Shown here: one piece after another, positions 8,258 through 15,834 of the stretch | How the letters are laid out: each line of letters begins with the position of its first letter | How positions within the stretch are numbered: position 1 is the first letter of the stretch | Source: an uncultured SAR86 cluster bacterium | GTDB taxonomy: Bacteria > Pseudomonadota > Gammaproteobacteria > Magnimaribacterales > AG-339-G14 | Assembly: GCA_902578495.1 (NCBI GenBank) | Contig: CACHCY010000001.1 | Coordinates: 123,975 to 187,974 of the forward strand | DNA length: 64,000 nt | Reading direction: 5' to 3' | Translations under genes and position numbers: made by a program | The notes under the pieces: model-generated | Told to the model about the DNA's origin: nothing | The model's database searches: none | What the model saw: only the letters and a program-made list of their open reading frames with translations

Positions 8258-8848
8258 TCAGTTTGAAGAAAATTGTAAGTTAAATTCTCTAAAATTTTTC
8301 TCAAAATCATTTCTTGAAATATTTTTAATGAAATCAAAAGAGCTTATTCTATCAAGAGCTATCCTAATAGATCGATCGAAAACCTCATTGCCGCTTTTAT
8401 TCAGAATTTCATAGTTAACAACCTCACCAGAAGGAGCAATTGAGATTAGAACTTTAACAAATAAATCTTCAGGCAGATTTTTAGGTTTTTGCCACAAAAA
8501 TTCATACTCTGCTCTGATTTTAGCTGCTATCTTTAAGACTTCTGACTGAGTAGATATTTGTTCAACTCTATCTCTATCTTTTTCAAGATTAGAAAAAAAA
8601 GAATTCACATCAGACTCAAAATCATTTTTAGATTTGGCATCTTCTGAAAAAGAGGATGGAGTGGTTTTAACATTTTTAGATGAAGATTTTTTTGTTTTAG
8701 GCTCTATTTTTACTTCAAAAATTAGATTAACGGGCAGCTGGATGATCTTTTCTTCTGAATAATCATTGAAATTAATGTTGAAAAAGAAGCTGAATAAAAA
8801 TGCATGCAAAAAGAAAGAGCAAAAAAACCCCGCTATTAAATTAATCAT
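8258..8848 (-). CDS. tolA: TolA-like protein, short form
   Basis: 196 aa, N-terminal TM, C-terminal TonB/TolA-like domain (VKVLISIAPSGEVVNYEILNKSGNEVFDRSIRIAL), between tolR and tolB. Confidence 0.85.
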   Translation of the reverse strand: MINLIAGFFCSFFLHAFLFSFFFNINFNDYSEEKIIQLPVNLIFEVKIEPKTKKSSSKNVKTTPSSFSEDAKSKNDFESDVNSFFSNLEKDRDRVEQISTQSEVLKIAAKIRAEYEFLWQKPKNLPEDLFVKVLISIAPSGEVVNYEILNKSGNEVFDRSIRIALDRISSFDFIKNISRNDFEKNFREFNLQFSSN

Positions 8849-9263
8849 TGTTAATGGGGTCAGAAATTAAATTTATTGATATTGGATCAAGATTTTGAAT
8901 AACGGCTAGAAGTTTTAAGACATTGTCATATTCAACATCTTTATCTCCCCTAATATAAACATTCAAATTGTTATTAATCTTGAATATATCTTCCAAAACA
9001 GGTTTCAAAGTATCAATGGAAAATGATTTATTTTTGTAGGATTCAAATTCTATAAAAAACTGCCCTTTCTTATCGATTGTTAAAGTAAGTTCTTCTAATT
9101 CACTCTCCTCTAGCACAGATGCAGTTGTTTCAGGTAAATCAATTTTTATTCCTTGAACTAACAAAGGTGCAGTTACCATAAAAACTACCAGCAAAACGAG
9201 CATCACATCAACATAAGGAACCACATTTATTTCATTGATTTGACTTCTGTCTGATTTTCTCAT
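8841..9263 (-). CDS. tolR: TolR (ExbD family)
   Basis: INEINVVPYVDVMLVLLVVFMVTAPLL. Confidence 0.96.
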   Translation of the reverse strand: MRKSDRSQINEINVVPYVDVMLVLLVVFMVTAPLLVQGIKIDLPETTASVLEESELEELTLTIDKKGQFFIEFESYKNKSFSIDTLKPVLEDIFKINNNLNVYIRGDKDVEYDNVLKLLAVIQNLDPISINLISDPINND

Positions 9264-9920
9264 TTATCTTGCCAAAAGATTTTGGAATTCTTCAATGAAA
9301 CTCTCGTATCGATTCAAGATAGTATTGATTCTTTTCACAAAAAAGTTGTAGGCGATTAAAGCTGGAATAGCAGCAAATAAACCCAGTGCCGTGGCAATTA
9401 AGGCTTCTGATATTCCTGGTGCAACAACGGAAAGAGTCGCCTGCGATGTCTGAGCCAATCCTCTAAATGAATTCATTATTCCCCAGACAGTTCCAAATAA
9501 GCCAATATAAGGACTTGCCGAGGCAACAGTTGATAGGAATGAAATTCTTGATTCTAAAAGATCCTCTTGTCGCATCAAAGAAACTTTTGACACACGTTTA
9601 AATCTGGCAGTTAAGTCATCCTTTTGTAGCTCCTGACTACCTTGAGCTATTGAGTCTTCATAAATCTCATAAAAAATTGACTCTATTCCAGCAAGATCTT
9701 CTTTTGCTTTTAGGTCATCATAAATATCTTTCAATGATTCACCTGACCAAAAAAATTGCTCAAAGAGAAAAAATTCTTTTAAGGCATTATTTGTGACTAT
9801 CCATTTTTCTACTATTATCACCCAAGAGCCAATTGAAGCCAGCAGAAGAATTCCTATTACTAATTGAACAACTATGCTCGCATTTAGAATTAAGGAATAA
9901 ATTGAAAAATAATCAGTCAT
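9264..9920 (-). CDS. tolQ: TolQ (MotA/ExbB family)
   Basis: ASASPYIGLFGTVWGIMNSFRGL, SEALIATALGLFAAIPALIAYN. Confidence 0.97.
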   Translation of the reverse strand: MTDYFSIYSLILNASIVVQLVIGILLLASIGSWVIIVEKWIVTNNALKEFFLFEQFFWSGESLKDIYDDLKAKEDLAGIESIFYEIYEDSIAQGSQELQKDDLTARFKRVSKVSLMRQEDLLESRISFLSTVASASPYIGLFGTVWGIMNSFRGLAQTSQATLSVVAPGISEALIATALGLFAAIPALIAYNFFVKRINTILNRYESFIEEFQNLLAR

Positions 9921-10329
9921 TGTTTTGCACCAAAGATTTCATTTTAACTCTTAATTCCTCTGGAATTTTAGCAGGCGCATTTCTTTTTAGAGAAATACAA
10001 CCACAGTAAACCTGTCCTTTACAAAGAACTTGCTTTTCATCGTTTTTAAGGTTGGCCGATTGGGAGAAAGTAAAAGAGACATTTTTTGAAGAGGATAAAA
10101 TTGTTTTTATTACAATCTCATCGTCAAGTTTTGCTGGAGAAAAATATTCAATTTCTTGTTTCTTTACGACAAATGCAATGTCTTCTTTCAATAATTCTTC
10201 TTGTCGATAGCCAATTTCCCTCAAACACTCAGCGCGCGCTCTTTCAAAAAAATTTAGATATTTGGAATGATAAACAATTCCTTGTGCGTCTGTATCTTCA
10301 TAATATATTCGAAGAGGTAACTCGTGCAT
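9913..10329 (-). CDS. ybgC: Tol-Pal-associated acyl-CoA thioesterase YbgC
   Basis: IYYEDTDAQGIVYHSKYLNFFERAR. Confidence 0.96.
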   Translation of the reverse strand: MHELPLRIYYEDTDAQGIVYHSKYLNFFERARAECLREIGYRQEELLKEDIAFVVKKQEIEYFSPAKLDDEIVIKTILSSSKNVSFTFSQSANLKNDEKQVLCKGQVYCGCISLKRNAPAKIPEELRVKMKSLVQNND

Positions 10330-10333
10330 CTGA

Positions 10334-10765
10334 CTAATACTGAAAGTCTTTCAGTTTGTTGTTGTGATTTTCTAAATCTTCAGAAAATTCAGTTTTTATC
10401 AATGTAATAAAGTCCTCAAAAGATAGATCACAAGTTACGTTTTCATTGAAACTGAAATTTTCATTTAAGATTGATAATGGCACTCTCACCTTTATTGGCC
10501 TTCTATCAAATTTATAAATTAGAGCAGGAATTTTATCCCTCCCTGATGCTGATACTACTTGTTCCCACCAAGAATCCATTGGCTCATTGCCAGAACCATA
10601 CCTTTTGCATTCCAGGTACCATCTTCCGAGAATTAAATCAGGTAGATGTTTTTCCCTAGTTTGTTCAAGGATTCTCTTAAGTTGATGCTTTAATTCAAGT
10701 CTTGTAGATAATTCATTAGCAATTTCTCTTTCAAAAGAAGCGCCTTTGTTTCTTGAATTAGTCAT
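10334..10765 (-). CDS. PD-(D/E)XK nuclease, phage Holliday-junction-resolvase-like
   Basis: NKGASFEREIANEL ... LPDLILGRWYLECKRYGSG: E - PD - (x)n - E-x-K nuclease pattern; sits between ybgC and yebC, the canonical ruvCAB site. Confidence 0.7.
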   Translation of the reverse strand: MTNSRNKGASFEREIANELSTRLELKHQLKRILEQTREKHLPDLILGRWYLECKRYGSGNEPMDSWWEQVVSASGRDKIPALIYKFDRRPIKVRVPLSILNENFSFNENVTCDLSFEDFITLIKTEFSEDLENHNNKLKDFQY

Positions 10766-11497
10766 CTATGTTACTGATGCCTCAGTTAGTTCAGCATTTG
10801 TATAAACATTTTGAACATCGTCTAAGTCCTCAAGAGTATCAATTAGCCTGATTACTTTTTCTGAATCTTCATCTCCTAACTCTACTGAATTGGATGGAAG
10901 CATAGTAATCTCAGCATTTTCAATCCCAGCGTTAGACTGCTCCAAAATTTCTTTTATATTTAAAAAATTATCAGGTTTACAAATCACTGTAACAATCTCA
11001 CTTTGCGATTCAATTTCTTCAATATCATAGTCAATGACGAGTTCGAGAGTATCATCTTCTGATAAACCTGAAATGGAGATTATTCCCTTAGATTCAAATT
11101 GATAGGCAACCGAACCATCCGTTCCAAGGCTTCCGCCAGCTTTTGTAAAAGCATGTCTTACTTCTGCAACGGTTCTATTTCTATTATCTGTCATTGCATC
11201 GATTAATATCGCTACGCCATTAGGGCCATAGCCTTCATATTTAATTTCTTCCAGATTATCAGCTTCTGAATTTCCAGCTCCCCTTGCAATAGCTCTATCA
11301 ATAGTATCCTTAGGCATGTTGGCACCTAAAGCTTTATCTAAAGCTAACCTAAGTCTGGGATTATCTGCTGCAATTGGGCCTCCTAGCCTTGATGCAACTG
11401 TCAGTTCTCTAATAAATTTGGAGAAGATTTTTTGTTTTTTCTCATCTTGGCGACCTTTTCTATGCTTAATATTTGCCCACTTGGAATGACCAGCCAT
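10766..11497 (-). CDS. yebC: YebC/PmpR family protein
   Basis: MAGHSKWANIKHRKGRQDEKKQKIFSKF. Confidence 0.98.
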   Translation of the reverse strand: MAGHSKWANIKHRKGRQDEKKQKIFSKFIRELTVASRLGGPIAADNPRLRLALDKALGANMPKDTIDRAIARGAGNSEADNLEEIKYEGYGPNGVAILIDAMTDNRNRTVAEVRHAFTKAGGSLGTDGSVAYQFESKGIISISGLSEDDTLELVIDYDIEEIESQSEIVTVICKPDNFLNIKEILEQSNAGIENAEITMLPSNSVELGDEDSEKVIRLIDTLEDLDDVQNVYTNAELTEASVT

Positions 11498-11498
11498 C

Positions 11499-13262
11499 TT
11501 AATCTCCGTCAGGATCGGTTAATGAAATACCTAGCTCTTCAAGCTGTTCAGAATCTACTCTAGCAGGGGCATCCGTCAGCAAACATAAAGCTGACTGAGT
11601 TTTTGGAAAGGGAATCACTGATCTAATAGAATCTGCTCCCATCATAAGCATAACTAGGCGATCTAATCCAAAAGCTATACCGCCATGGGGAGGAAATCCA
11701 TAATTCAATGCATCAAGAAAAAAACCGAACTTATTTTGTGCCTCGTTTTCAGAAATACCCAACACTTCCAGAACTTTTGCCTGCTCAGAAGATTTATGAA
11801 TTCTAATCGATCCACCCCCAACTTCAGTCCCGTTTATAACAAGGTCGTATGCATTGGCTTCGACTGCTCTAGGATCGGCCTCGAGATCTTCTATTGAACC
11901 CTTGAAGCTGGTAAAAGGGTGATGAGCAGGAGAAAGATCTCCTCCAATAGATTCTTCAAATAGAGGCCAATTTGTTATCCAAACCGGCTTCCACGAATCT
12001 TCAATTAAATCAAAATCTTCAGCTATTTTATTTCTTAATGCTCCCATCGAATCAGAAACAATTTTTTTATGTCCCGCTCCAAAGAAAACGGTATCTCCAT
12101 CTTTTACGTCTAGTAATTTAAATAAAGAATCAATTTCTTTTTGAGATAAAAATTTTAAAATTGGCGACTGCAATCCATCATTCCCTTTTGTTAAATCATT
12201 TACCTTGATATAAGCCAAACCTTTTGCTCCAAACTTTCCAACAAATTCTGTATAAGAATCAATTTTACTTCTTGTAAGTTCTGAAGAAATTTTTAGAGCA
12301 ACAACTCGACTATTTAGATCATTAGCAGGACCAGAAAAGACCTTGAAATCAGAATTTAGGAAGATTTCCTTTACTTCTTTTAATTCTAGGTTGATTCTAA
12401 GATCAGGTTTATCACTCCCAAACCTTTCTATGGCCTCTGAGTAAGTCATTTTTGGAAATTTAGGCAGCTTTATGTCGAGTAACTTCTTAAAAATGAACTT
12501 AATCAATTTTTCGGATAGGTTGATAATCTCATCTTCGTCGGTAAATGCCTTTTCTATATCGAGCTGGGTGAATTCAGGCTGTCTATCTGCCCGTGTATCT
12601 TCGTCCCTAAAGCATCGTACAATTTGATAATACTTCTCAAACCCAGAAGCCATTAAAAGTTGCTTAAATAATTGAGGTGACTGTGGCAAGGCGTAAAAGC
12701 TGCCGCGTGAAATTCTACTTGGAACAAGAAAATCTCTAGCTCCTTCTGGAGTTGCTTTAGTCATCATTGGAGTTTCAATATCCAGAAATCCTTCTTTGTC
12801 CATGAACTCTCTTATCGAAGATGAAACTTTTGATCTTGCTCTAATGTTATTTTGCATTTCAGATCGTCTAAGATCTAAAAATCTATATTTTAATCTTACC
12901 TCCTCTCCTGCAGAAGAATAGTCGTCAAGCTGAAATGGCAGAGGATCTGATTCTGATAAAATTTCAAATGAAGAAACTAATAACTCAACTTCTCCTGTAG
13001 GTATTTGTTTATTGATAGTTCCGTCAGGTCTTCTTCTAATTTTTCCATCCACAGATAGCACAAATTCTGACCTACATCTTTCAGCCATAGAGAAAAATTC
13101 TTTATTTTCAGGCTCTACAACTACCTGGGTTATGCCTGTTTCATCTCTTAAATCTATAAAAATTACACCACCATGATCTCTTACGCTATCAATCCAACCC
13201 CTAAGTCGTGTTGGCTCTTCAACGTTGGCAAGATTTAAAAGACCACAGCTAGAATATTTCAT
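11499..13262 (-). CDS. aspS: Aspartyl-tRNA synthetase
   Basis: GWIDSVRDHGGVIFIDLRDETG, FRDEDTRADRQPEFTQLDIE, GIAFGLDRLVML. Confidence 0.98.
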   Translation of the reverse strand: MKYSSCGLLNLANVEEPTRLRGWIDSVRDHGGVIFIDLRDETGITQVVVEPENKEFFSMAERCRSEFVLSVDGKIRRRPDGTINKQIPTGEVELLVSSFEILSESDPLPFQLDDYSSAGEEVRLKYRFLDLRRSEMQNNIRARSKVSSSIREFMDKEGFLDIETPMMTKATPEGARDFLVPSRISRGSFYALPQSPQLFKQLLMASGFEKYYQIVRCFRDEDTRADRQPEFTQLDIEKAFTDEDEIINLSEKLIKFIFKKLLDIKLPKFPKMTYSEAIERFGSDKPDLRINLELKEVKEIFLNSDFKVFSGPANDLNSRVVALKISSELTRSKIDSYTEFVGKFGAKGLAYIKVNDLTKGNDGLQSPILKFLSQKEIDSLFKLLDVKDGDTVFFGAGHKKIVSDSMGALRNKIAEDFDLIEDSWKPVWITNWPLFEESIGGDLSPAHHPFTSFKGSIEDLEADPRAVEANAYDLVINGTEVGGGSIRIHKSSEQAKVLEVLGISENEAQNKFGFFLDALNYGFPPHGGIAFGLDRLVMLMMGADSIRSVIPFPKTQSALCLLTDAPARVDSEQLEELGISLTDPDGD

Positions 13263-13577: not shown

Positions 13578-14834
13578 ATGAAAACTAGTTCATATCACTA
13601 TAAAACGTTAAAAGACTCTCCATCTGATGCTGAGTTAATAAGTCATAAACTCATGCTCAGATCTTCAATGATCAAGCTAAATGCATCAGGTATCTATACT
13701 TGGTTGCCATTAGGATTAAGATCTCTAAAAAAGGTCGAGAACATAGTCAGAAGAAATATGGACGAAGCAGGAGCCCAAGAAATACTAATGCCTATGGTTC
13801 AACCCTCTGATTTGTGGGAGGAATCAAAAAGATTGACAGAGTATGGTCCAGAATTACTAAGATTTGTAGACAGAAATGATAGAAATTTCGTTTTGGGACC
13901 AACACATGAAGAAATAATTACAGATATTGCTAGAAAAACCTTGAATAGTCCTAGAGATCTTCCTGCTAATTATTATCAGATTCAAACAAAGTTTAGAGAT
14001 GAAATTAGACCAAGATTTGGAGTAATGCGTTCCCGTGAGTTTCTTATGAAAGATGCCTATTCATTTGATATTGATGAGAAAAGCATGAAAGAAAGTTACG
14101 GTTTGATGAGAGATGCATATCAAAAAATATTCAATGAAATAGGGTTTGATTACAGAATAGTTTCAGCTGATTCTGGAGCAATTGGTGGATCTGCATCAGA
14201 AGAATTTCATGTATTAGCGGGCTCAGGAGAAGATAAAATAATTTTTAGCGATGATGAATTATTTGCTAGTAATCTAGAGTTATTTGAAGAGAAATCTGAT
14301 CAAGAAATAATTGATCAGCTTCATGAGAAAGATGGAAAAGAATATTCAATTAAAAGAGGAATTGAAGTTGGTCATATATTTCAATTGGGTGATAAATATA
14401 GCAAGTCATTATCTCTTTCTATTCAAACTAAAGAAGGAAATATAAATCCTTTGATGGGATGTTACGGAATAGGTATATCAAGAATTATTGCTGCTTCAAT
14501 AGAACAAAATTATGATCAGGATGGAATTATCTTTCCAAGGTCAATTGCGCCATTTGAAGCAATAATAATTATCATTGGTGAAGATAAAAATCTTCTTACA
14601 GAAGCTGAATCTCTTCAAAACGAACTAACAAAAATAGAAGTAGATTCGATAATAGATGATAGAAATGATTCACCAGGAAAGAAATTCAAGGATGCAGACC
14701 TGACCGGGATTCCATTTCAATTGATAATTAGTGAGAAAAATAAGAAGGAAAACCTTCTCGAGCTAAAGATTAGATCTGAAGGAACTTCACTCAAAGAAAA
14801 TAAAGAAAATATTTTAACTAAGCTGAAGCCTTAA
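13578..14834 (+). CDS. proS: Prolyl-tRNA synthetase lacking the INS editing domain
   Basis: Class II motifs ([40 protein letters not shown]); 418 aa, motif 2 to motif 3 joined by a short linker. Confidence 0.95.
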
Positions 14835-15834
14835 TGGCATCGAATAGTTTATTTTCTATTTCTTGAGATATCTTTTGATTGGCATCTAAAAATTCACAGG
14901 CGTTTGATTTACCTTGGCCAATTTTTTCCCCCTCGTAGGAATACCAGGCTCCTGCCTTTTCAATTATTTTCTTGTCAGCGGCCATATCAACAAGTTCGCC
15001 TGTTCTATTGATTCCTTTGTTATAAATAATTTGGAATTCAGCTTGCTTAAATGGAGGTGAAACTTTATTTTTTACTACTTTTACTCGTGTTTCATTTCCG
15101 ATTACTTCATCTCCATCCTTAACAGTTCCGATTCTTCTAATATCCAGTCTCACTGAAGAATAAAACTTAAGCGCATTTCCACCGGTTGTTGTTTCTGGGC
15201 TACCAAACATGACACCGATTTTCATTCTGATTTGGTTAATAAAAATAACTAATGTATTTGATTTTTGTATGCTTCCAGTTATTTTTCTTAAAGCCTGAGA
15301 CATTAACCTTGCTTGTAAACCAACGTGGTGATCACCCATATCCCCTTCAATTTCAGCTCTTGGAACAAGAGCTGCGACAGAATCAATTACCAGCACATCA
15401 ACACTTTCTGACTTAACCATAATATCTGCTACTTCAAGAGCTTGCTCTCCTGTATCAGGCTGAGATAAAAGTAAGTCATCAACATTTACTCCAATTTTTT
15501 CGGCATAAGAAGGGTCCAGTGCATGTTCTGCGTCAATGAATGCTGCAGTTCCACCTGCCTTTTGGCATTCTGCGATAATCTGAAGGGTTAGAGTTGTTTT
15601 TCCAGAGGATTCAGGCCCAAAAATTTCTACAACTCTACCTTTAGGCACTCCCCCTATTCCAAGAGCAACATCGAGACCCAAAGAGCCTGTAGATATAGAA
15701 GGTATGTTTTGTATCTCTCTATCACCCATCCTCATTATGGTTCCAGGACCAAATTGAGTCTCAATTTGACTAAGAGCGGACTGAAGAGATTTTTCTTTAT
15801 CTTTTGATTGAGATTCTTTTGAAGATTTAGCCAT
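14818..15834 (-). CDS. recA: Recombinase RecA
   Basis: [49 protein letters not shown]. Confidence 0.99.

Follow-up and report, generated by a model that had tools for sequence, protein, structure and literature searches.

A phage-type PD-(D/E)XK nuclease in the ruvCAB slot of SAR86 bacteria, a proposed Hjc-like Holliday junction resolvase in an order without RuvABC

Which enzyme resolves Holliday junctions in a bacterium whose ruvCAB slot is filled by an unrelated gene? The question is raised by a window of 64,000 nucleotides (the whole stretch of DNA analysed here) from an uncultured SAR86 cluster bacterium, in which one small open reading frame lies between yebC and ybgC. The features concerned are as follows.

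10334..10765, minus strand: 143-aa PD-(D/E)XK nuclease (PDDEXK_15 / PHROG 244), proposed Hjc-like resolvase; ATG start; E12, D43, E52 and K54
10766..11497, minus strand: yebC, upstream flank of the ancestral ruvCAB slot (Pfam)
9913..10329, minus strand: ybgC-type thioesterase, downstream flank of the slot (Pfam)
9264..9920, minus strand: tolQ (Pfam), then tolR (8841-9263) and tolA (8258-8848)
11499..13262, minus strand: aspS, upstream of yebC in the same conserved block (Pfam)
14818..15834, minus strand: recA, intact (Pfam), 4 kb from the nuclease gene

The initial annotation had described a 143-aa PD-(D/E)XK frame separated from yebC and ybgC by 0-4 nt, and this layout was confirmed with Pfam-verified neighbours: yebC abuts the nuclease frame (0 nt gap), ybgC begins 4 nt downstream of it, and the ybgC-type gene overlaps tolQ. 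The G+C content of the nuclease gene (33%) is that of the window. Since recA is intact, the strand exchange that generates Holliday junctions is present. A prolyl-tRNA-synthetase-like gene (13578-14834, plus strand) was also observed; it encodes only 418 aa, with the core and anticodon domains detected by Pfam and without the editing domain.

The family of the nuclease was established using profile searches. The protein matched PF24608 (PDDEXK_15) in Pfam with 46.9 bits against a cut-off of 27 (E 3.5e-12) and phrog_244 in PHROG with an E value of 4e-15, and PF24608 was matched by 48/48 members of the nuclease alignment. In these 48 SAR86 and phage sequences the catalytic residues E12, D43, E52 and K54 were invariant, together with R5, K7, G8, R13, Q35, Y56, W66, W67 and Q69. 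The description of the gene as phage-type PD-(D/E)XK is thus well founded. PDDEXK_15 / PHROG 244 is the direct sequence family of the SAR86 protein, but its members are phage or prophage genes, while the SAR86 gene is fixed at one chromosomal site. PHROG 244 is annotated as "RusA-like Holliday junction resolvase". RusA is a phage-derived junction resolvase that can act without RuvAB; PHROG 244 borrows only the name, as RusA (PF05866) is a separate family, and because the nuclease has no match to the PF05866 domain the label is a loose one. The RuvC domain (PF02075) did not match the protein either. Apart from PF24608, no Pfam family matched up to an E value of 1, an Hjc family included, and NCBIfam provided no family for the protein. 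Searches of PDB chain sequences, using phmmer with the protein and hmmsearch with the profile, returned no Hjc chain and only chance matches.

Similarity to Hjc was found at the level of the fold. The AlphaFold2 model of the nuclease (pLDDT 88.6, pTM 0.85) was searched against the PDB, and the top 11 matches were all archaeal Hjc (best E 1.5e-3, TM 0.44-0.52), so the fold comparison with Hjc proposed in the initial annotation gave Hjc Holliday junction resolvases as the nearest solved folds, at modest scores. B. subtilis RecU was a weak match at rank 29, and several matches among viral models were named Holliday junction resolvase. Using hhalign with a profile of solved Hjc sequences including 1hh1 (sequence verified), the KG..ER, PD and E-x-K motifs were in register over 120 columns with an E value of 0.0015 but a probability of just 17%. 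Archaeal Hjc/Hje (PDB 2wcw, 2eo0, 1hh1) share with the SAR86 protein the KG..ER helix, the PD and E-x-K motifs and a size of ~120-145 aa. They differ in that identity is only ~14-20% in fold alignments, no Hjc Pfam match exists, and the SAR86 protein has a WWxQ motif and a C-terminal part of its own and is encoded on a bacterial chromosome. On the basis of the model and the profile alignment, we read the nuclease as Hjc-like without counting it as a member of the Hjc family.

RuvC was detected neither in the window's own genome nor in any of 199 SAR86-order genomes, compared with 343/369 sampled gammaproteobacteria, and RusA (PF05866) was likewise found in 0/199. RuvA passed the cut-off in only one of the 199 genomes (G125), on a short contig. 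This match (L047, contig 98) is a genuine RuvA of 213 bits in a SAR86-order bin without RuvC; considering the short contig, the 3% contamination of the genome and the missing RuvC, it is probably a stray or contaminating sequence. RuvA matches below the cut-off (mostly 18-26 bits) lay in frames about as long as RecR or UvrC and were taken, by inference, as helix-hairpin-helix cross-hits. The RuvB_N profile passed its cut-off in 176/199 genomes (best 36 bits), and these matches were not accepted as RuvB: four of the top matches were assigned by NCBIfam to DnaX (three) and ClpX (one), and archaeal controls matched too, so they are regarded as AAA+ cross-hits. The initial annotation had raised the possibility that ruvABC is missing elsewhere in the genome as well, and the absence holds across the order. 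It could be argued that this absence is only apparent, caused by incomplete genomes or by divergent homologues that went undetected, given that the window's genome (1.18 Mb) is 88% complete and in 27 contigs. We consider this very improbable: besides the missing RuvC in all 199 genomes, ruvABC is missing in genomes assembled as a single contig, which represent all four families (G006, G043, G044, G062, G045, G048), the controls of the ruv searches matched in the expected organisms, and the nuclease sits in the ancestral slot itself.

The slot was identified from outgroups. In 9/14 outgroup gammaproteobacterial loci yebC and ybgC flank ruv genes, with the order ruvC-ruvA-ruvB read in one of them (L263), from which it follows that the nuclease lies where ruvCAB stood ancestrally; the arrangement yebC-ruvCAB-ybgC-tolQ, which had been stated as normal for Gammaproteobacteria, was therefore seen directly. 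RuvC and the SAR86 nuclease share this slot (yebC-[ ]-ybgC-tolQ) and the proposed task. RuvC differs in its RNase H-like fold, its sequence preference and its partner RuvAB, and has no sequence relation to the nuclease.

The nuclease was found in 37/40 genomes of the window's family and in 177/199 genomes of the SAR86 order (38/40 of those at least 90% complete), covering 22/22 genera. The order aspS-yebC-nuclease-ybgC-tolQRA was present in ~60 loci read from SAR86-order genomes, and all 80 named loci had the same block order except where the ends were cut by contigs. Among the named GTDB records that share the gene and its surroundings, nearly all carry the label SAR86 cluster bacterium; most of the others are marine MAGs whose label goes no further than Gammaproteobacteria or Pseudomonadota. 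In the fourth family (f4) the order is aspS-yebC-nuclease-tolQ, and ybgC was not detected. Within two genera the dN/dS of the nuclease was 0.060 and 0.072, close to that of tolQ and ybgC; the gene is under purifying selection. Finding this gene at this position in every locus read and in all 22 genera, with a dN/dS of ~0.06-0.07, is more than chance. The nuclease is a fixed, ordinary chromosomal gene that has been inherited vertically in the SAR86 order, not a recent insertion.

Outside SAR86, weak copies (26-49 bits) were found in just 3 of ~365 sampled gammaproteobacteria, while viral contigs hold hundreds of copies. The tree grouped every SAR86 copy with six viral copies in one clade (support 100/99), which lies within a large marine-phage family, beside other marine phage copies. 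A SAR86-only clade was rejected (AU p 0.014; a single test, and some of the branches are long). This makes it probable that SAR86 first acquired the gene from phages and that some phages later picked it up from SAR86, although the direction is inferred. The viral contigs whose nuclease falls within the SAR86 clade or next to it (L151-L161) are candidate SAR86 phages. The PDDEXK_15 / PHROG 244 family is not named in marine-phage papers that mention a Holliday junction resolvase (PMC8024684, PMC11288001). On one phage contig (L154) genes for a virion structural protein and an endolysin precede the nuclease. The same contig, with a nuclease of the SAR86 type, also encodes, judged from its sequence, a 593-aa CHASE2/adenylate-cyclase-like protein (429-2210) and a curlin-repeat-like frame (26-436).

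Since phages carry closely related copies, some of which fall within the SAR86 clade, and phage copies adjoin virion structural and lysis genes, the nuclease could be a domesticated phage gene retained for phage-related reasons, such as interference with incoming phage or the reverse, and not for the recombination of the cell. We regard this as improbable. The gene occurs throughout the order, passes down vertically, evolves slowly and has a fixed place in a block of housekeeping genes, whereas defence genes are patchy and mobile, and Pfam and PHROG return only nuclease and resolvase families for it.

Branch migration was considered together with the other candidates for junction processing. 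The initial annotation had listed ruvA, ruvB, ruvC, yqgF, rusA and recG for a genome-wide search; ruvABC and rusA were absent as described above, and YqgF and RecG were present in the window's genome or in sampled relatives. RecG in the window's genome scored 656 bits, just below the strict cut-off. The loss of a branch-migration motor that had been suggested stands for RuvAB, but branch migration itself is not lost here, because this genome keeps RecG. At an E value of 1e-140, RecG was found in 126/199 SAR86-order genomes. It was absent from all 64 genomes of the genera g6, g9, g10, g11 and g21 (family f3), compared with its presence in 126/135 genomes elsewhere, and in the closed genome G044 the best RecG match at the normal threshold was a 1090-aa frame of Mfd-like size. 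These RecG-less genera carry the nuclease (e.g. G044; loci L058 and L274), and six loci from them carry recA with ~75% identity. From these profile searches, RecG appears to have been lost in five genera that also lack RuvABC and keep RecA and the nuclease. YqgF was found in 7/7 genomes tested, six of which also had RecG.

The replacement in the ruvCAB slot proposed in the initial annotation is supported by the nuclease present there in every locus read and by the order-wide absence of RuvABC. We think it likely that a phage-derived, Hjc-like Holliday junction resolvase moved into the ruvCAB slot in the ancestor of the SAR86 order, that the entire RuvABC system was lost, and that the enzyme cuts junctions without RuvAB. 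Its dimer formation, junction cleavage, role in the cell and the order of gain and loss are inferred. RecA would form joint molecules, and a metal-dependent PD-(D/E)XK dimer (E12, D43, E52, K54) would recognise four-way junctions via their shape and nick two opposing strands, so that RuvAB would not be needed to move a preferred sequence to the crossover. Branch migration, where required, might come from RecG, except in the five genera that also lack it. Against the resolvase reading, no biochemical or genetic evidence exists, the fold matches are modest and the hhalign probability is low. Part of the task could also fall to YqgF, which is present and whose candidacy as a resolvase is disputed.

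These limits leave room for a different role, in which the protein is a repair or structure-specific nuclease acting mainly on something else (flaps, stalled forks, mismatches or recombination ends), the phage gene having landed in the slot after the loss of ruvCAB and junctions being handled by YqgF or by RecG/topoisomerase-type dissolution. PD-(D/E)XK enzymes act on very diverse substrates, the similarity to Hjc is modest, and YqgF and RecG are available in most of the genomes tested for both. We nevertheless judge this explanation rather unlikely, though to be taken seriously, considering the exact replacement of the ruvCAB slot over 22 genera, the lack of RuvC and RusA in 199 genomes, and the five genera without RecG that still keep RecA and the nuclease. 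Moreover, Rocha et al. (2005) found RuvC/RecU and YqgF together in most genomes (PMC1193525), which speaks against YqgF as a simple stand-in.

RuvAB is among the most constant companions of RecA: of 117 bacterial genomes, only two with RecA were without RuvAB, and both had RecG (PMC1193525). Here, a whole abundant, free-living ocean order is without RuvABC. It is already known that RecU stands in for RuvC in Firmicutes (PMC1193525), and RecU of Firmicutes/Mollicutes resembles the SAR86 nuclease as a PD-(D/E)XK resolvase that replaces RuvC in a bacterial group; however, RecU co-exists with RuvAB and as a rule lies outside the ruv slot, while in SAR86 RuvAB is gone too. In the literature searched, we found no paper tying SAR86 to RuvC or Holliday junctions, and no report of a free-living order in which a phage Hjc-like gene stands in the slot of the whole ruvCAB set and RecG is lost in part of the order. 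The SAR86 locus would be a clean case of a core recombination machine replaced in place, non-orthologously, by a phage enzyme.

If the resolvase reading is true, the five genera that appear to have lost RecG besides RuvABC would resolve junctions with neither classical branch-migration motor, and SAR86 offers a natural test of the dispensability of these motors. The chances appear evenly balanced that a free-living order runs RecA recombination without RuvABC by means of one resolvase of phage origin, and that five genera do so without RecG as well. An ECKA variant of the nuclease was considered as a companion of RecG loss and dropped, as the RecG-less genus g11 has ECKR and the RecG-bearing family f4 has ECKA. 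In one f4 locus (L233, genome G042), where ybgC was undetected between the nuclease and tolQ, the nuclease carries a phage-like QYQEKD motif.
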